Assembly: GCA_013995675.1 (NCBI GenBank)
Contig: VWRR01000010.1
Location: forward strand, 545,872-609,871
Direction: 5' to 3'
Origin: Cyanidiococcus yangmingshanensis
Taxonomy: Eukaryota > Rhodophyta > Bangiophyceae > Cyanidiales > Cyanidiaceae
DNA: 64,000 nt
Shown: piece after piece, positions 26,180 through 64,000 of the stretch
Layout: every line of letters starts with the position of its first letter
How positions within the stretch are numbered: position 1 is the first letter of the stretch
The notes under the pieces: model-generated
What the model saw: only the letters and a program-made list of their open reading frames with translations
Databases searched by the model: none
Told to the model about the DNA's origin: nothing
Program-made: the position numbers and the translations under genes

Positions 26180-27402
26180 ACAGACGGTTGTTTGGGTGTG
26201 CAAGCTCTCCTCATCAGCTGAATCATGCGTTTGAGGAGTGGCTTGGGGTGGCTGCCTGAAGGATTGTGTCATCAAGGAGGCGAGATCCGCCGCCTCTCCG
26301 GGGTAGCTCTATCTTGGCTGTAGGCGCCCCAGAGAGAGGCATATCTGAGAAGGTTTCTCAAGTCAGTGGTGGGACGCCTAGAGTAGGCTCGCGAGACCGA
26401 CCAAGTAAAGCTGGTGCCGATTTTCTGCGTCGTTTATGAAGGATCCTCTAGTCCAGAAGCAACGCCAAAGAACTAACGAGTTTTGACAAGGCAGATCACG
26501 GATGCGATTTGTATGGGTTCATTGTGGCTGTCAGGTCAGAGCCAATGTGACGGTATGATCCTCCTACGTGTCCATAAAGTTTCGTTTTTTTGATCTTCTC
26601 AAAGCCGGCGAAACGGCCTTGCAGCGTCCAGAGTTATTGCCCAAGACGTGAACATCGAGGCATTTCACGTAGATAGACAAGGAGAGCACTCCCTTTTGCG
26701 ATCCGCATAGCTGCAAGTTTGTTGTAGGTTTCTTTCAGCATTTTATATGAATATATCTGGCAATGCGATCGAAGGCTGCCTGCAAAGCATGCCCGAATTC
26801 CAAGGGCGACTGTATTCTCTGTCCAAATCAAGGTTTTCGATTTGATCGACGCATTCCCGCGACTTTCTCGTTAACGAAGGTTTCTTCTCAGTTTCATCCA
26901 GGGGCATCCATGCGGTGTTCTTACCTGGAGCTCGATTCGTGTTTTGGATCGACAGAGGTCTTGCTCCTACCCAAAAAGAGAATAACACCCCGACGATGTC
27001 GCGCCGAGCAAGAACAGTTCGGAAACGTCTAGTCTGGATCGAGAGCATGGAGTTCGAGATCAACAACATAGCGCTGTGATGTGGGCTGTTGACGCTGTAG
27101 ATATTTGCATGGTTCAGGTCAAGGCAGACTGGGAAGCTCGATTGGTGAGACTCGCACCGAGTCCACTGCAACCTGCAGGCAGATCCTGATAGCATCGATC
27201 GCGACAAGTGGCGGCTGGGTCTCTGGCCATAGACGATTGTAACGTCGCTCATTCCGTGGCTTACCTTTCAATGGCCCGGTCGAGTGGCTTTTCGCAACCG
27301 ATAAAGATCAATTAAAGTTTAAACTGGTATGATTCTGTGTTGTCCAATTCGTCGAAGCGGTTTGCGGAGCGATCTTCAAGGTTTTTCTGTACTGCGTTGA
27401 CC
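26180..27402. other. Intergenic, no recognised gene
   Basis: Some 1.2 kb with only chance-like ORFs (longest 26743-27252, minus, 169 codons, low similarity to anything I know). Confidence 0.4.
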
Positions 27403-30400
27403 ATGGAGGGCGAGCGCTCGCCGTCCGACGCCTTCGGTTTTGCTCTTTGGAGAGCGTTGCAGGGTGCCCTTCGAGCCAGACGGAGTTCTTCGAAGATAAC
27501 GCTAGCGAGTTCGGAAAACTACGAATCGCTGGACTCGAGTTCGGTGAGCGCTTCAGACCGAGGCGCAAGTACGGGAACCCAAACGCTGCCCACATCTTCA
27601 GCTCGAGCATTGCCTGCTACAAGCCCTTTTTTAGGCGAACCCAAGCTTCGCTCGACTCCGAAGAATTCTCAAGGTAAGCGTGAGAAATCTGCAGGGTTTG
27701 TTCGCGAACATAGTCGTCGTCGTGCTGTGTCCCAGAGCTTCCCAGAAAGATCACATGAGCTCGGTGCCGCATCCAAGACTTTCGTGGCAGATAGCGATGG
27801 ACCTACTCAATTGACCGCCGTATACTCAAACGCTCAACGACGATCAAGCGTTGACTGCTCAAAATCAGTCGATAGGAGCCCGGCAGTGGACAAGGACAAG
27901 CACGATGAGGCGATTTGGAGAGATGCGAGCAGTCTCTGTGCTGAGCTGGAGAGGGTTGCACTGGATCTCGGTGGTTGCAACGGGCCTCGAGGCATTGCGC
28001 TGGCTCGCAAACGTTGGCCCATGTTGCGCCAGCGAGCATGTGTTCATGGCGATGCTTCTCGAACAGGCCAGCAAGTCGCTTTGCTCACGTCCTCGGAACG
28101 ATCACTCACAGACACAAAAGTGGTTTCGAAATCATCGATCGACCTTTCTGAACTTGTGATGCAGTTCACTGATCGAGTGAATATGGCGGCGAGTGCATGG
28201 CTATCGAAGGTTGTATCAGGAACTCGTCGTACAGCAACGAAGGAGATCCATGAACATCAGCCGACATCCTCCGCGGATCCTGCCTCTGGACAGCTCACGG
28301 AGATGAGGACGCAGGCGATGCAGCGAAATCTCTGTGCTTTGGAATGTCTGACGCTATTGGATCTCTTGGGAATCTCGCCTCAGCAGGCAAAGAAAATGCT
28401 TCTTGATCACTGCGCTACATCAATGAAGCTGGAGAGCGACGCGGCGCTGTTCAGAGGCTTCTGGGAACGCTGGGAGTGTTTGCTCAGGGGCTCCTCGGGG
28501 TATTCGATCTCGGATACGTCGGAAGCTTACTCGTCTAGTGAATCGCAGCGCACTTGGCGCAGTGTGCTGGAGGTTCCCCGAGAGCTCTTCCTAAGACTTG
28601 AACAAGTTGACATGGTGCGAGTGCTGTGTTTGTTCGAGCTCGTGGATATTGAAGTTTTCAAGTCTATTGCGGTCGAAGACATCTCTTCCGCTGTGCTCTT
28701 GTTGTACGCAATCGGTGTATCGGCCAATGATAGAATTGCAAAGTCCCAGGATGAGACTGCTGTTCGGATATGTTTGAGCGTTCTGGAAGTGCTCTCGAAA
28801 TGGCAACAGGCTCTGACACAATCATGGCGCGATCACGTGATCGAGCTCGAGACCGCACTCCTTTCGATAGAGCATGCGATCGCTGCGTTTGTATCGATAC
28901 TGTGCACCTCGTGGCGTTCTGCTCCCAGCGTGTCGCTATGGACCCGCCTCGACGAACTGTCAACACAAAGAGCATACTGCGCAATGCAGGGCGTCTTTGA
29001 AACAAGTGTGAAGGCTTTGGCATTTCATGCAGAGAATCCGTCCCATGGTCATCATTACACGCTCTGCTGCAGTGTACTAAGCAGCTTTTGTACCTTCTTG
29101 TCTTCAGGCAATAGAGAACGACTGACTTGGTTAGGCAATGCTTTGTTAGAAGGGCACTCGAGCGTTACGGCAGATGTGATGCGCTCTGTGGCGGTCGGCG
29201 CTTGTCTCGTGGTCTTTCGCGATATCGACGCCGCCCGCGCAGCAAAGCGCCTCTTTCTTCAGCTTCTTGGAACACCATGGCGATATCGGCTACTTGAAAG
29301 CGCCTCCCGCCTTCTAGAAAGCGACCCGAGACCTTTGGAAGCCGAGATTTTGGCAATATCGAGTCGAGGAGAACGAGACGTAGGATCGAATGCCAAAGGT
29401 GCGACCTCGGGCGCTACGTCAAGATCAGTAGAAGCTGAAATCAAGGGTCACCTCGTCAGCGCGGACAAGGAGTGGGCGCTTGGCTCGCAACCAGCTGCAA
29501 TGCAACCTGAGACTCATTCTCATCCGTTGCCTTGGTTCAAGAACAGCGAAGAGCATCATGTGCAGTCGCTTGCACTGGGCTCGTTGCACTGCCTGCTTTG
29601 TGCACTCTATCAAAAGAACTTGTTCGGCATCGCGGAGGGACATGGTCTATCGAGCGCTCTCACCCTACGGATTGGTCAAGGTGCGAGGTACTGGACACGA
29701 AGATCCATCTACTTTACGTTTGAAATGATTGCGGCACTCTGCTACATGTTGCGCGCTGGCACCATCTCTTTGTATGCAGATGGCACAGCGCTAGCGTTGC
29801 TCGTTGACATCTCCACCAACGCAATCGCGCATGAGCTTCGATTCAGTGAAAAAGACACCTTGACTCCAAGCGCAGGTGGGTCGGCACCGCTGCATCGTGC
29901 GCATGAGACATCACGCCCAGGGGTCGCGTTTGAGACAAGAACATGGCGCACTTGCTTAGAACCGAGCGCGGAGCGACTAGTACCTCGAACAATCCCGATC
30001 CCCGAGGGTTCAAATTCTCAAGCGACAAGCGCTCCGTCAGCGGAGGCATCCGTGGCTGCAACACCACTGCGGGAATCTGCGCTCACCGGAGACGTGGCCG
30101 TTGGCTTGCAGAATGCCATACAAATCTTCTCGGAGTCGATCTTGGATTGTATGGAACAGGCCTCAGTGGCGTTGTTTGCAGCGGAGCCCGCGCTCCTATC
30201 ATTCCTAGAGCGACTAATTCCATTTCTAGCCCAACGTGACCGCTTGCGAATGCTTGCTTTACGGGAACGTTACGCACAGCCGGTTTTCGACCTGGAAACC
30301 TGGGTGGATCGTATGCAGTATATTCTGACGCTCTACCTTCGAGATGAGAATGCGAGGGCGGTCCGTTTACGTGCTGTTCGTTTTCTCCGCGACACATTCA

Positions 30401-33400
30401 GCACGTGGAAGGGTCTTTATGCAGACTCGTTTGTGGCTGAACTGGTGCAGCCGGTGCTTCTGGGCTCCTGGAAGGATTTGCGTGTCACAAGAGGAGGCTG
30501 TGAGAATCCGCTCGATCAAACTCAGCCGGATTCGGAGCTAGAGGAGGAGCTTTTGCACACCATCGCTGTCGCGCTCAGTGCACCAACGAGCCTCCCAGTA
30601 TTTCGACGTTTTATCAATGAGCTTGTCGGCTTGGATGAAGCCGTTATACCAGTAGTTTTTGCGGCTTTGGAGACTGTTTTACGAGAGAGCAACATCACGC
30701 GTGCATCTCTTCTTTTAGCAATATTAACCGGATTACTGTCTCCCTCGAACTTCATGGCCCATGGATTTGGCAACTGGAGCCGAAGAATCGAATGGTCGAG
30801 TCGCAACACAACGGCGCTTGAACGCTTTCTGTGGCTTTATTCTTCGGCTAACGCAGGACGCTCCTGGCTCGCGTTTTCTCCAGCTGGACGGGCGCATGCT
30901 TTCGATTCCGATCCGACTCGATGAATCAATACATGGTATTGCTGTCCGAACCGGAGTCGATGGAGACAAAAGCGCTCCTCAGTATGCGGAACTGGAAGCG
31001 CACGGACTCATGGGATGGGGCGCCTCCGATGAGCACGCCCCATGCCCAGGCGGTCACTGCCGAACCTCTTGAGCCATACCTGGCTGATGGAGGAAGACAT
31101 GGAGCATCCGCTGAAACGCGTATCGCTGATCGACCAGAGACAAAGAGGATGGATTGTCTCCAGGTTCCCGTCGCAACCTGGGTTCACCGCCTGCTGGGAT
31201 TGCTTCTTGAATCGGCGTCGACAACCTCAGCAACTGATTCACGCACATTGGTCCCGCTAGAGACCGTCGTAAGCTGTCTTTTACACCTGAGCACGGATCC
31301 TGGGCTTGGTCCAGTAGCTTCGTTGCCGTCGCTGAACGTGTACGATCAACTTTGCCAGTGGCTTGGGCGATCGCGATCGTCCGCGGTCAATCAAGCTGCC
31401 ATGAAACCGAATATGGTTGTGCGTCATCTCGCTTTTGAGGTGTTGTTTACGATTTGTTTGCGGCAGGCAGCGGTTGCACATGAAGGCAAGAATCGATTTG
31501 GACATCTCCTCGAAATGGTGCTTGCTGAACTCGGCTGGCAGGTCGATCAAGCGGAACACTTGCTACTGCATCCGCCATGGATAGACTTGTTGCTGCGAAT
31601 CATCGTGCACGGCTGGTGCATGTTTAACGAGACGCGTCGGGAGGAAAGTATGTTCTCTCTGACCAAGACCTTTCTCATTGCGTTGCAGACTTTCGCGGTG
31701 AATTTGGTGAGTGGTTTCCTCGAAAGCGTCGCGGCGGGCGACCATGGTGCAACTTCGCCGACGCAGTGCTCAGAGAACGCGGCTGCCATTCTGGAGAGCG
31801 TTCATGGATTGGCGCTCTGTTTTCGAGAGTTTATCACCGACGCTGAGATGGATCTGCTTCAAACGTTGTCAATCAGGCGATCTGGCTCAACAGCTACTGG
31901 GTGTACCGTCGAAATGCTGGCATCGTCCGACGCTGCTGCAACTGAATCTGGCGCAGCCTTGTTTTCGAGCATGGTGGCGTCCAGAGAGGCGACCTATATT
32001 GAAACCGCACTGAGTATTGTGATCACAATGGTCCCTTTGTGGGGACACCCCAGCGCTCACCAGCATTCTGAGCAGCCTGTACACGCTTTGGGACAGAGCG
32101 TGCGTCTACGACGTCTCGCGATGGCGGCATGGTGCAACTGGGTGACACAGGCCAAAGATGTGGCCGCTGTTCAGCCGCTTGTACAACTTTTGGAAAATTA
32201 TTGCCGGAGATACTCCTGTGAGTGGTTTGGCATGATTGCTGCTGAGTTCACGAACTGTTTCTGCACCCGGAGCCATATTGATCGAGGGCCCGGGTACTTG
32301 TTGGACAAGTCTGTTCAACAGGCTCCAAGTGTAATTACTTGGGCGATCATCGCGAAGGATGCGCTCCCTCTGATCGTGACAGCCATGCTGGATGGAGATA
32401 GAGTTATTTTGGCGATACGAAGGGTAACTGGTTCCACCTGCCTGGAGGTACTGCTCCGCCAGCCACCATGGAGCTGGTATCCGTTGCGTGCTGCGTTTTC
32501 GTGCGTGCCCTCCCAGTGGTCTCTGTCGGCAGGCTGGGCAGAAGCGCAGCGTTCTGGAGCACGATCTTCTTCGCATGCTCGCGCACAGACGTCGTTGCCG
32601 CGCGAGCCTGCGATCAAGCTAGAGCGCGAAACGTTGTCTCCTCGCACTGGAACAGAGCGAGACGAAGCATCAACGTTTGCCGAGACTGTTGAACCGGCCA
32701 ATGCAGCATCAGAGGATAGGTCCACGACGCCGAAGCAATTTTCGGACGCTTCGGAGGCGTTGGCGAACCGGCTGCAAGGTGTTGTTGCGCTCTTGATGCA
32801 CCGCCATCCTTTGGAAGAGTGGCGGCGTCTCTCCCAGGACATGCACGTCTGGCAGGTTTTGGATCGGATGCCACCCGAGGATATTCATCGCATTGGGCTC
32901 CTGTATGTTGGAGCAGGGCAACAAGGCGAGACCGAAATACTCGCCAACATTGCCGGTGACGCCCCCTACAATGAATTCTGCGCGAGCCTCGGTTGTTTTA
33001 TGAATCTGACTCAAGACTGGATGTTCGCCTATACTGGGGGCCTCGATTACAGTGAGCGGCGCGCTGATGGCGCTTTCGCGCTCTATTACCGTGACGCTGC
33101 CGCCCAGGTGATTTTCCACACCACGACGCTGATGCCGTCAGAGACGATTGCGGGCGCTGCGGACCTCATCATGACTGGCGCCGGTGCAGAGCCAGATACG
33201 ACAACTTCCACGGGACGCAACGACGGCCGCAGTGGTGGCCTCACAAGGGGACGATCAACGGAGATCAAGAGTATCATTAGAAAAAAGCGCCACGTTGGCA
33301 ATGATCATGTGAAAATTTTCTGGTGTGCTCGCCGAGAGGAAGCGCGAGTCGCTGCTGCACCAGGCCTTTTGCCGGGGGCGTTTAACTCGGTCCATTTTAC

Positions 33401-33785
33401 GGTTACGCCTGCACCCGCTGAAAATGTGGACGGGGAAAGGCTCTCTGGGCGATTACTCTACGCACAAGCGCATTGGCATCGAAGTGAGATACCTCGTTGC
33501 GGTCCGTTGCGTGCTTCAGAACTATATCTACTCCGCGAAGCGAGAGCTGCCGGATTTCTGGTTCGTCTCTCGGCCATCCATGCGAATATTCTCTGTGGTT
33601 GCTGGGGAACGGCAAGCCGTCGAGGCGCTGCAACTGTTACTGCTGGGGCGCCAACCACGAGCGCATTGAATCCAACCGCTGGGTCGCACGCGGTTTTCTC
33701 CCTGGGAATAGAGCAGGAACCATGGCTTCGCCGCCTGCACTATATTCGTCAGCAAATTGAACGTCTGTCCGGACAAGCGGTCTGA
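27403..33785 (+). CDS. Tuberin/RalGAP-alpha-like Rap-type GTPase-activating protein (frame-shifted)
   Basis: A giant signalling GAP of about 2100 residues. The first ORF (ATG 27403 to the stop at 30924) is helical, Leu-rich and low in obvious motifs, consistent with HEAT-like solenoids. The second ORF, open in another frame from about 30852, continues the helical part and ends in a Rap/Ran-GAP domain. That domain shows YNEFCASLGCFMNLTQDW, YTGGLDYSERRADGAFALYY and FHTTTLMPSE, then the catalytic asparagine-thumb segment RHVGNDHVKIFW (about 33290-33325), FNSVHFTV, CGPL and LVRLSAIHAN, and finally LRRLHYIRQQIERL. These correspond to the C-terminus of tuberin (TSC2), which inactivates Rheb upstream of TOR, and of RalGAP-alpha. 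Which GTPase it acts on is unknown. The stop and the next ATG overlap as ATGA, but in a nuclear gene a one-base indel in 30852-30924 is the better explanation. Confidence 0.82.
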
Positions 33786-49163: not shown

Positions 49164-51962
49164 CTATTCATGCGAAGATTTCTTGCGACGCTGCGCCTGG
49201 TGCTTCGCAATACGCTCGACAAGCATCTCCAGACGCGCATGTTGTTTCTCTAATAGTTCAAGGAATGACTCTTCATACAATTCTTTCATCAAGACCTCCA
49301 TGGCATCTAGTAATTCGAAGTATCGTTCGCACTGGCGTTTTCGAAGACTTGCGTCATCTTCGGGAGCAAGCGGCGCGTCGGCATCCTGCACGCTTGGACG
49401 GCGGCCGTATTTCGATTTGAACTGCTCACTCCATTTTCGTAAACTCCTCCGTAATGAAATAAACTCGTGCAGCTCCTCAGTGCCTAGGAGGCGCACTCGA
49501 CCAATGAGCCGATAATCTGCTGGTCCCAGTTCCAGGTTTGAGGCGCTCGGGCCCAGCAACTCATCGTCTTCGTTGCCGACTGCTTCGAATGAATTCAGCG
49601 AGGCCTCTGGCTGTGATACCGCCGCCACCGTATTCGTCGATTCGGATTGGTTACGACTCGCTTGCGCAGCCGGCATGGCGTCTCCTGGCACGGTGGTCGA
49701 TTCCTCGGCTGCGCCCGGAGCCGTTTCCTGTTGCGAGTCCATTTGCGCATCCGATTGGACTTGTCGAGCACTCAGCGTTGGAGGCTCAGGGTTACGCTCA
49801 GAGACAGACTTGTCCATCGGGCGGCGGTTGCGGCTCGTCGTTTTGAGGTTTGCTCTCCTCGAGGTCTTCGCATTGGCTTGGCTGGAGGTAGCGCAAGACA
49901 GATGCGCCTGCTCATCGTTCTTTTTCGCAGTACCAGCCTCCAAGCCGCTATGTGACAAGTCAGTCGTTTGTTCGTCATCCGCGGCCAAGTTGGTCGTCGT
50001 CCACTGATCTGCGTTTGCTTTTTCGACGTCTCCTGTTCGAGAAAGCTTGCTTTCACTGTTCAGCTGAGACTGCTTCTTGTACGCCCTTTTTGCCGAGCCA
50101 ACCGAGCGGCTGGGTTTCATCTTGACGACCTCGTTGATTCGAGTGCTCTCGTCAGCACCGCGCACTGTCGACGAGGCGGCAATTTCATCGGTTTTGGGAC
50201 TGGCATGACCATTGTCGTCGCGGATAGAGCGGCTCCACGCACGTATCTCTTCTGGCACGGCGCTGTTGTGGAGGCCTCTGTCATCTGCGCCCAGATTGTT
50301 GGACCAATGCGCTGCTATTGGGTCGCTCGATAGCTTGTTCGTGTCCTTTGAACGCGATCGGCCTTTCGCGCGTCTGCGAGGGGCGTCTCGAGCACCTGAT
50401 CCATGATGTTCCTGGGAACCTCCTTTTGTGGCTCCTTCGTTCATCCTCATGTCGATGATCGTCTCATGGTCTCCTGAAAAGGGCGGGATTTTTGGTCCAT
50501 TTGAGGCATATCTCTGCTCTTCCGACTCCGCATCGCTCGAATGCATCAGAGCCGTGCGGGAGCGACCCCGTTTGAGGGCTCCAGCGTTCGCCCCAGAATC
50601 CGGCGCCTCAATAACCGCAGCATTGGCTTGTGATTGGCTCGGCCACAACGCGATTGGTCGACGAGCATTCCGACGCATGAGCTCAACCGGGCTTGCTGGA
50701 GTTTTCTTCAGCACTCGGGGCGCACCAATAGACACCATCTTGGCCGGGCTTTGATCTTCATCACTGGTCGTATCCTGCGTTAGGCTGTGGGTTAGCGGCA
50801 TGGTTGCGCTCACCGACTTTGCCAGCAACTCCTTGTCCGCCGGTTCATCCATCGATTTTTGCATTCCTTTCCGATTGATGCCGGGAATCATTAGCGTATC
50901 CCCTAGAACTTCATCAGCAAAGTTTCGCAACCGTTCCCGTAGTTTCAAATACATCTCGAATTTTTCAATGACCTCTGGAGATGCCATTCGGCGGACGTCC
51001 ACCAGCGTTGGGCGCCGGCCAGCATGAAAACGAGCAAAGAGTTGACTCCATGCGCGAAGCTCCGCCCGAAGACGAGTGAAACGCTGCACATCGATGGCAA
51101 CTGAGTCGAGGCAGGATGTTTCCGAGTTGGGACGTTTTGAAGAGACAGATTCATCTGCACGTTCGTTGTTCTGAGCTCTAGTCTCGGCAGTATCATTAGC
51201 TAGTTCCGCTGCGTCCAGCGTCTCCGCATTTTGTTCCCCGTTGTGATCAGTGCGGAATGAGCTTGGTTCGGACATCATGCTCACGTCGTGGTCTGCAGAC
51301 AAAACCAAAGATTGCAGACGACGAAACTCCTCCTGAGTGGACGCATCGAACGCGCATTCTGGAAAGACGCCGCCCCTCTCAGTGGAGAGCACGTCGTCGG
51401 GACGACGCCTCATACCTTTGGAGATACGCTGTCGATGTTCCTCGCTTAGCGAACGACCCTCGTGTGAAGCACTTATTTTCTGCCGGTGTGCCTCTGATAA
51501 CGCCTTGCCTTTGTTCCATGGAGCGATGCCACGTCTAGAGGCGGATATACGCGCCCGAACCTCCGGAGGGTGCGGCAGTCCTTTGTTCCACGGTTGGCTC
51601 GTAGCCGTCGACAGCGAACGCGACTTGGTTGCCGTCCGCGCTCTCGGCGCTCTGGTTGTGCCTCGCTTTGCCACAGTCTCGGCCGAAACGTCTCTAAACT
51701 CACCAGAGCAGGATGTATTGGCAACTCCTAAAGCACGGTTTCGCTCACTCATTCGAACTATCCGGGATTCTCTACCTGCCAAACCAACTTGTCCAACTGA
51801 CGCAGCGTCGTCCTGCCGCCAAAGTTCGTTCGTCATCGCCCTGTGCAGACCCAGTTTCCATTTACTTCTCCTCCGATCTCCTCTGTTGCTACCACCGAAA
51901 CTTGCTTCCAAGAGTGTGCCTTTTGCATCTCTTTGAAAAGGCGTAACACTCACAAAAACCAT
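49164..51962 (-). CDS. NUMOD3 protein with two Sld2/RecQL4-like modules
   Basis: 932 residues from ATG 51962, frame intact. Residues about 124-186 are NUMOD3-type DNA-binding repeats: PWNKGLPHPPEVRARIS, PWNKGKALSEAHRQKIS and SLSEEHRQRISKG, the modules found in homing endonucleases and in some plant proteins. Two copies of another ~60-residue module follow: one near residue 300 (LRAWSQLF ... GRRPTLVDV ... FEMYLKLRERL), one near residue 830 (LRKWSEQFKSKYGRRPSVQD ... YFELLDAM). Their pattern, L-x3-W-x3-F-x4-GRRP-x3-D followed by a Y-x3-L helix, resembles the N-terminal Sld2 homology region of replication-initiation factors Sld2/Drc1 and RecQL4. Between the modules lies ~450 residues of charged, Ser-rich disorder; the C-terminus is a coiled coil with basic end. 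No helicase or nuclease catalytic domain is visible. Likely a nuclear DNA-associated protein. Confidence 0.75.
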   Translation of the reverse strand: MVFVSVTPFQRDAKGTLLEASFGGSNRGDRRRSKWKLGLHRAMTNELWRQDDAASVGQVGLAGRESRIVRMSERNRALGVANTSCSGEFRDVSAETVAKRGTTRAPRARTATKSRSLSTATSQPWNKGLPHPPEVRARISASRRGIAPWNKGKALSEAHRQKISASHEGRSLSEEHRQRISKGMRRRPDDVLSTERGGVFPECAFDASTQEEFRRLQSLVLSADHDVSMMSEPSSFRTDHNGEQNAETLDAAELANDTAETRAQNNERADESVSSKRPNSETSCLDSVAIDVQRFTRLRAELRAWSQLFARFHAGRRPTLVDVRRMASPEVIEKFEMYLKLRERLRNFADEVLGDTLMIPGINRKGMQKSMDEPADKELLAKSVSATMPLTHSLTQDTTSDEDQSPAKMVSIGAPRVLKKTPASPVELMRRNARRPIALWPSQSQANAAVIEAPDSGANAGALKRGRSRTALMHSSDAESEEQRYASNGPKIPPFSGDHETIIDMRMNEGATKGGSQEHHGSGARDAPRRRAKGRSRSKDTNKLSSDPIAAHWSNNLGADDRGLHNSAVPEEIRAWSRSIRDDNGHASPKTDEIAASSTVRGADESTRINEVVKMKPSRSVGSAKRAYKKQSQLNSESKLSRTGDVEKANADQWTTTNLAADDEQTTDLSHSGLEAGTAKKNDEQAHLSCATSSQANAKTSRRANLKTTSRNRRPMDKSVSERNPEPPTLSARQVQSDAQMDSQQETAPGAAEESTTVPGDAMPAAQASRNQSESTNTVAAVSQPEASLNSFEAVGNEDDELLGPSASNLELGPADYRLIGRVRLLGTEELHEFISLRRSLRKWSEQFKSKYGRRPSVQDADAPLAPEDDASLRKRQCERYFELLDAMEVLMKELYEESFLELLEKQHARLEMLVERIAKHQAQRRKKSSHE

Positions 51963-52840: not shown

Positions 52841-53860
52841 TCATTCAGCGCTGCTGCTCAGCGTAGTGTCCGGCCTGTTCCGGAAAAAGGTACAAACTTT
52901 TTGGTGGTGGCAGCATCTGATCTCGCTGGTTCTTGGGTCGCCGCATCCGCCCGTGCTTTCCGCCTCTGCATGATTCCCGAATCTTGGTGAAGGAACTTGG
53001 CGTCCGCTGAGTGTACGACCCCCAGGCAGCCTGTCCCAGTAATTTTCTCGCTGGTTCGATGTTTCTCTTAACGTGCTGGATGTACTCGTGTCAGGGGCTT
53101 TCGTACCATTCAGCTTTCCTTCGGGAGCCTTCTCGTTTTTTCGCCGCCAGAGCGAGCGCGATGTCGTTGCCGTAGACGTAACCTCACTCGTCGACCCGAA
53201 TTCAATTGAACCGGGGTCGGTGGCGGCACTACTAGCCACATCGTTCGACGGTCCTGCCATGCTTTCCGGTGGCAAATCACGCGGTGGCGCAAACTCAACG
53301 CTCACGTCGGTATCCGTCACACATACTGCCTCGGCGGGCTCGCAGGAAACTACGGTAACCCAGTATGTCTTCCCATTGTACTCTATCGCGATTTCGTCTC
53401 CTTGCGTCAGCGCAGTGAAGTGCCGGAGCCTCGTCTCTAGTACTGCACGGGGGTTGGTCATATACGTAAACTCGGTCAAGTGTGGCTGCAGCTTCACGTA
53501 GCGGGCTTTTGGAAGATTGGCAGTTTCCAGCCGAACTATGTCACCTTCCTGTAGAGCGAGGTTCTGCATCAGCCAGTGAGGCAAGTAACATCTGCCTTCC
53601 TCTGCTGTGAACTCGATAACTCCCCCGTGAGTGACTCGCCCAGATCGCTGCGCGGTGATGCGGAAGATCATCGGGTCTGTGCTGTTCCACTGGAGAAGCT
53701 CAGCGAGAAGCGACTGTGGTAGCAGAATCTTGTCGCCAAGCTCGTACTCCGGCCGTGCCGCCGAAGAAAAAGCGAGAGAAAAGCTCTCCAGCTCGCGCTG
53801 GATAGGCCGAAGCGGCCTAAAAGGGCCCAAAGCATCAGCCGCTAGCCCTTCGTCGTCCAT
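52841..53860 (-). CDS. UFD1: UFD1, ubiquitin-fusion degradation protein 1
   Basis: Partner of Npl4 that recruits the AAA ATPase Cdc48/p97 to ubiquitylated substrates, notably in ER-associated degradation. 339 residues from ATG 53860. The double-psi-barrel N-domain is clear: FSLAFSSAARPEYELGDKILLP, then MIFRITA, THGGVIEFTAEEGRCYLPHWLMQNL, EGDIVRLETANLPKA, and the second half YVKLQPH, FTYMTNPRAVLETRLRHFTALTQGDEIAIEYN, with a hydrophobic VTVVSCEP and a FAPP near the end of the domain. The C-terminal third is disordered; RLPGGRTLSG there looks like a degenerate p97-binding SHP box (usually F-x-G-G-G/R-x2-L). The tail after it is Cys/His-rich and not conserved, so a late frame shift is possible. 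It functions with the ER quality-control proteins encoded nearby only in a general sense. Confidence 0.93.
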   Translation of the reverse strand: MDDEGLAADALGPFRPLRPIQRELESFSLAFSSAARPEYELGDKILLPQSLLAELLQWNSTDPMIFRITAQRSGRVTHGGVIEFTAEEGRCYLPHWLMQNLALQEGDIVRLETANLPKARYVKLQPHLTEFTYMTNPRAVLETRLRHFTALTQGDEIAIEYNGKTYWVTVVSCEPAEAVCVTDTDVSVEFAPPRDLPPESMAGPSNDVASSAATDPGSIEFGSTSEVTSTATTSRSLWRRKNEKAPEGKLNGTKAPDTSTSSTLRETSNQRENYWDRLPGGRTLSGRQVPSPRFGNHAEAESTGGCGDPRTSEIRCCHHQKVCTFFRNRPDTTLSSSAE

Positions 53861-63724: not shown

Positions 63725-63786
63725 GGACTATGTGAAATGAGACAACTGAGCGAAACGTGTGGACTATGTGAAATAAGAGTAAATGT
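63725..63786. repeat. Telomere-adjacent direct repeat
   Basis: The stretch ggactatgtgaaat occurs at 63725 and again at 63761, the second copy leading through aagagtaaatgtgggg directly into the telomere array. Confidence 0.85.
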
Positions 63787-64000
63787 GGGGAATGGGGGGA
63801 ATGGGGGGAATGGGGGGAATGGGGGGAATGGGGGGAATGGGGGGAATGGGGGGAATGGGGGGAATGGGGGGAAATAAGAGTAAATGTGGGGAATGGGGGG
63901 AAATGGGGGGAAATGGGGGGAATGGGGGGAATGGGGGGAATGGGGGGAATGGGGGGAATGGGGGGAATGGGGGGAATGGGGGAGGGGGGGAATGGGGGGA
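63787..64000 (+). repeat. Telomere, AATGGGGGG repeats
   Basis: About nine perfect 9-bp AATGGGGGG units from 63791, then an interruption at about 63871-63890 (gaaataagagtaaatgtgggg) identical to the junction sequence at 63770-63790, two 10-bp variants with AAAT, and about ten more units. The last part is irregular (a G run with one A near 63983). The G-rich strand runs 5'->3' to the end of the window, as expected at a right-hand chromosome end. The unit equals the one reported for Cyanidioschyzon merolae. Confidence 0.97.

Follow-up and report, generated by a model that had tools for sequence, protein, structure and literature searches.

A 932-residue protein (P0001) encoded in a 64,000-nucleotide stretch of the Cyanidiococcus yangmingshanensis genome (the window; contig C2, positions 545872–609871) joins a NUMOD3 array near its N-terminus to a pair of related helical modules and includes a long linker of low complexity. 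This architecture was seen by computation. Sequence comparison suggests that the nearest known relative of both modules is the N-terminal module of RecQ4/Sld2. With modest confidence, we read the protein as a scaffold that is encoded in the nucleus of this Cyanidiales red alga, is tethered to DNA and carries Sld2-type modules. The combination of NUMOD3 repeats with two Sld2/RecQ4-like modules looks new. In the open-licence literature, we found nothing that joins Cyanidioschyzon with Sld2 or NUMOD3 with red algae, and the six NUMOD3 titles found there did not include Sld2 or RecQ4.

The open reading frame (ORF; window 49164..51962, minus strand) was intact, with 932 codons and no internal stop. 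Among 20 mononucleotide shuffles of the window, the longest stop-free frame reached 280 codons. Guanine-plus-cytosine (GC) content by codon position was 0.60, 0.50 and 0.55, close to the values of the UFD1 frame and of two large ORFs in the window. A frameshift or two-gene chimera was ruled out by the single open frame together with codon-position GC like that of the neighbors. In-frame ATG codons occur at residues 43, 71 and 184, giving several possible starts. Translation likely starts before residue 124, because NUMOD3 similarity begins there.

We observed NUMOD3 repeats at residues 124–186 (51405..51593, minus strand), with PWNKG motifs at residues 124–128 and 148–152. The Pfam family PF07460, with a curated cut-off of 20.4 bits, matched the whole protein at 34.5 bits (best stretch, residues 130–164) and residues 101–194 alone at 42.5 bits in three stretches. 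NUMOD3 was the sole Pfam family matched by the whole protein at expect values (E) up to 10. The same search showed no nuclease domain (GIY-YIG or HNH), which ruled out a domesticated homing endonuclease that retains its nuclease. The red-algal protein passes the cut-off of this family of homing-endonuclease repeats, but differs from homing endonucleases in having no detected nuclease. An NCBIfam search of the protein gave no match. In the PDB, the NUMOD3 region matched only angiogenin-2 (E 0.1), which we regard as chance. An earlier reading of the window from its letters alone (the sequence-only reading) had proposed an intact 932-residue ORF with NUMOD3 repeats at residues ~124–186, and the profile hidden Markov model (HMM) scores and the single open frame confirm both points.

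A nuclear protein of eukaryotes is also reported to contain NUMOD3: the animal DNA-repair factor SHLD2/FAM35A is described as having a putative N-terminal NUMOD3 domain (PMC6138439). We liken the two proteins by this description, and Sld2 is not mentioned in that paper. Within the C. yangmingshanensis genome, one further site exceeded the NUMOD3 cut-off (contig C12, match at 558283–558393). The second NUMOD3 gene, on C12 (L010:883-2385, minus strand), has a frame of ~500 codons, NUMOD3 repeats scoring 48.8 bits, an arginine-rich start and C-terminal CxxCxGxG motifs. Its match to the DnaJ central domain was below the cut-off (17.4 vs 32.7 bits).

The two helical modules lie at residues 295–355 (module 1; 50898..51080, minus strand) and 829–900 (module 2; 49263..49478, minus strand). 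Module 1 contains WSQLFARFHAGRRP and module 2 contains WSEQFKSKYGRRP. The sequence-only reading had described two copies of W-x3-F-x4-GRRP. Two motifs are indeed present, at residues 305–318 (51009..51050, minus strand) and 844–856 (49395..49433, minus strand), but five residues separate F from GRRP in the first (WSQLF-ARFHA-GRRP) and four in the second (WSEQF-KSKY-GRRP). A six-frame scan of the window gave two occurrences of the strict pattern W-x3-F-x4/5-GRRP. Among loci L001–L029, its other occurrences were all in overlapping copies of this gene. The Smith-Waterman score between the modules was 63 (shuffles: mean 24.5, standard deviation 4.7, maximum 54), a value reached by 0 of 5000 shuffles. 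BLASTP aligned them with 15 of 36 residues identical (E 5e-7). By sequence, the two modules are relatives.

We predicted structures with AlphaFold2, using the two modules as the input alignment. Module 1 was modeled with a mean predicted local distance difference test (pLDDT) score of 91.7 and helices at model residues 2–30, 38–44 and 47–72. Residues 821–932 had a mean pLDDT of 85.5, with helices at model residues 8–32, 38–42 and 51–111. Both modules share a predicted layout of long helix, GRRP loop, short helix and long helix, and GRRP falls between helices 1 and 2 in both models. The C-terminal tail (residues 901–932; 49167..49262, minus strand) comprises the end of the long predicted helix, which runs to model residue 111, and then basic residues. 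Between the modules, the linker (residues 356–828; 49479..50897, minus strand) is rich in S, T, Q, N, G, P and charged residues and, from this composition, is probably disordered.

The first 54 residues of RECQ4 are described as a helical, homeodomain-like DNA-binding module (PMC4757822, PMC4747346). We observed that Drc1-Sld2 (PF11719) was the sole match of module 1 among 24736 Pfam families, with E 6.3e-4 and 20.0 bits for a 74-residue query and E 3.5e-4 and 20.8 bits for a 61-residue query. The alignment covered profile positions 3–48 of 416. Among 177635 PDB sequences, the top match was 2kmu, the RECQL4 N-terminus, for module 1 (E 0.044; runner-up, 1.7), for module 2 (E 0.0063; runner-up, 0.28) and for a two-module profile (E 2.6e-4, 24.2 bits; runner-up, 0.04); 2kmu was also the top PDB match of the whole protein (E 0.26). 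This likeness comprises W-x3-F-x4-GRRP and ~40 aligned residues. None of 10 control sequences (five module 1 shuffles, three module 2 shuffles and both modules reversed) matched Drc1-Sld2, and two of the 10 matched other families weakly (E 0.13 and 0.033). Against 2000 protein shuffles, the two-module profile scored at best 7.8 bits. Against six frames of 26 sequence sources, its best match outside the gene had E 0.34. The Sld2/RecQ4 resemblance is real but limited to ~50 residues. The sequence-only reading had likened both modules to the Sld2 N-terminal region, and the HMM search for module 1 and the PDB sequence searches for both modules agree; placement of the W-x3-F module in an unrelated family did not occur.

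Several results weigh against a closer relationship. Both module 1 scores were below the PF11719 cut-off of 28 bits, and for this reason we treat the match as resemblance and not as assignment. Module 2 alone matched no Pfam family, and PF11719 matched neither the whole protein nor module 2 at E up to 10. The remaining 368 profile positions, including the C-terminal DNA-binding part, had no match in searches where HMMER filters discard weak matches. The modules are internal and C-terminal, whereas the RECQ4 module is N-terminal (PMC4747346). The protein has six serine/threonine-proline (S/TP) sites; shuffles average 7.5, and 78% of 5000 reach six. It has one full cyclin-dependent kinase (CDK) site, and shuffles average 1.1. 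Three of the six S/TP sites (405, 421 and 424) lie at most 120 residues after module 1. The models could pass for long helical hairpins as readily as for a compact homeodomain. Two Foldseek searches gave a best E of 2.6 with 2kmu absent from the matches listed, and 2kmu was likewise absent from the matches that VIA-align listed; fold kinship with 2kmu is therefore not supported by structure. No relative from another species was retrieved from viral_contigs, genome_contigs or phages. In viral_contigs, no match to the whole protein was confirmed, and of 60 stretches that fit the pattern of the two-module alignment, 0 were confirmed; no homologue was found in genome_contigs or phages. The one genomic match to Mcm10, a partner of RecQ4, scored 16.6 bits and stayed below the cut-off.

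Unlike RECQL4, the red-algal protein carries two copies of the module and has neither a helicase nor a zinc knuckle. Pfam (E up to 10) gave no RecQ helicase domain, as the sequence-only reading had anticipated, and the five cysteines are widely spaced with no CCHC pattern. Yeast Sld2 also has no helicase. Because of the sub-cut-off score, the non-N-terminal modules and the absence of an S/TP excess, a helicase and a zinc knuckle, the protein is not assigned to Sld2 or RecQ4. The sequence-only reading is upheld in part: NUMOD3 scores over its cut-off and both modules resemble the RecQ4/Sld2 N-terminus, but the evidence does not carry its proposal of a stand-alone Sld2-type factor, as the profile match covers positions 3–48 of 416 only.

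We also looked for other Sld2/RecQ4 candidates in the genome. Three RecQ loci stood out, on contigs C13 and C6 over the cut-off and on C8 just below it (217.5 vs 219.8 bits). The C13 RecQ was nearest to BLM and the C8 piece to bacterial RecQ. The C6 RecQ was also nearest to bacterial RecQ; among eukaryotic proteins RECQL4 matched it best, just 5 bits ahead of BLM. The 10-kb stretches surrounding these loci yielded no Sld2-type module. A whole-genome search with PF11719 was silent, but it was also silent in 14 control genomes and missed module 1 itself. Genome-wide protein searches with module 1 or module 2 (E up to 10) returned self matches only and missed the sister module. This silence says little about a separate Sld2, because the searches missed module 1 or the sister module. 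The sequence-only reading had raised the possibility of another RecQL4/Sld2 N-terminus in the genome; none lies around the RecQ loci, and the genome-wide searches are too blunt to show absence. The C8 RecQ (L004/L005, C8:144373-145456) is split over two frames (339 and 554 codons) by an intron, a frameshift or a misassembly. The C6 RecQ (L003:388-3171, minus strand) has, ahead of its helicase, a weak GRF-type zinc finger (18.8 vs 25.9-bit cut-off) and, on its C-terminal side, a loose W-x3-Y-x3-GRLP string that looks like chance.

CDK-phosphorylated Sld2 joins Dpb11, and the animal counterparts of the two are RecQ4 and TopBP1 (PMC3520825, PMC4747346). We observed that the genome encodes CDC45 (E 2.6e-35) and has two sites over the cut-off for the Sld5/GINS family. 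An ORF on contig C1 (L027:2838-5207, minus strand; 789 residues) has four BRCT and three PTCB-BRCT stretches, and by sequence is a fair Dpb11/TopBP1 candidate. A replication role for the 932-residue protein is plausible. The pathway that we favor, tentatively, is replication initiation, in which the protein would be a stand-alone stand-in for Sld2 or the RecQ4 N-terminus beside a Dpb11-like BRCT protein, CDC45 and GINS. In such a scaffold, the NUMOD3 array would grip DNA as in homing endonucleases, and the Sld2-type modules, like the RecQ4 N-terminus, may bind DNA, partner proteins or both. With its modules at two points along a flexible chain, the protein could recruit partners to DNA or bridge two DNA sites. 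It is doubtful, though conceivable, that in this lineage the Sld2/RecQ4 module parted from the RecQ helicase, was duplicated and was joined to a DNA-binding array derived from homing endonucleases, giving an initiation factor with its own DNA anchor and perhaps some sequence preference.

Other explanations account for parts of these data. FAM13 proteins, for example, have C-terminal repeats that are helical hairpins with a GR loop, and the modules may belong to a broader family of this kind that serves protein binding and is functionally no nearer to Sld2. We consider this rather unlikely, as W, F and GRRP are kept in both modules as in the RECQL4 segment and 2kmu was the top match each time. 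Chance convergence on a helix rich in arginine, leucine and tryptophan with a GRRP turn could be suspected from the modest single-module PDB E-values, from the choice of segments on the hint of the sequence-only reading and from the two controls that matched other families. This explanation is very improbable, given that one family emerges from both modules, from three PDB queries and from Pfam, that no control matched Drc1-Sld2 and that the protein shuffles stayed far below the 2kmu score.

An organelle protein, such as one of the plastid nucleoid, is also conceivable; NUMOD3 would then bind organelle DNA and the modules would organize that DNA. The second NUMOD3 gene of the genome speaks for this explanation, as it joins NUMOD3 repeats to DnaJ-type zinc-finger motifs and its start looks, by eye, like a transit peptide. 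By eye, however, no obvious transit peptide is seen at the N-terminus of the 932-residue protein, and its modules are similar to nuclear replication proteins. We hold an organelle role to be improbable and retain the nuclear-encoded scaffold with Sld2-type modules as the best explanation.

A telomeric contig end is found ~12 kb away from the gene. The last 219 bases of the window (63782–64000), which ends with the contig at position 609871, are a tandem array of 24 copies of AATGGGGGG, the telomere repeat of C. merolae, and this array is telomeric. The next gene upstream, UFD1 (52841–53860, same strand), is 878 bases away. Elsewhere in the window, a 1195-codon ORF (27337–30924, plus strand) matched no Pfam family at E 0.01 and is directly followed by a Rap/Ran-GAP ORF (30921–33785). 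The assembly used here has 12,072,675 bases in 20 contigs, with a GC content of ~55%. C. yangmingshanensis 8.1.23 F7 is reported to have 12.0 Mbp, 54.6% GC and 20 chromosomes; its intergenic stretches average 929.7 bases, and its genome has 36 introns (PMC9812998).

How Sld2/RecQ4 acts in origin firing, and which lineages retain Sld2/RecQ4, are unsettled. Sld2-type modules that stand without a helicase on a DNA-binding array would allow one to ask what the module does by itself. The alga has ~4,800 genes, and its relative C. merolae 10D is amenable to genetics. The protein would also show that NUMOD3 repeats can be retained for a cellular job after the loss, or without the gain, of a nuclease.
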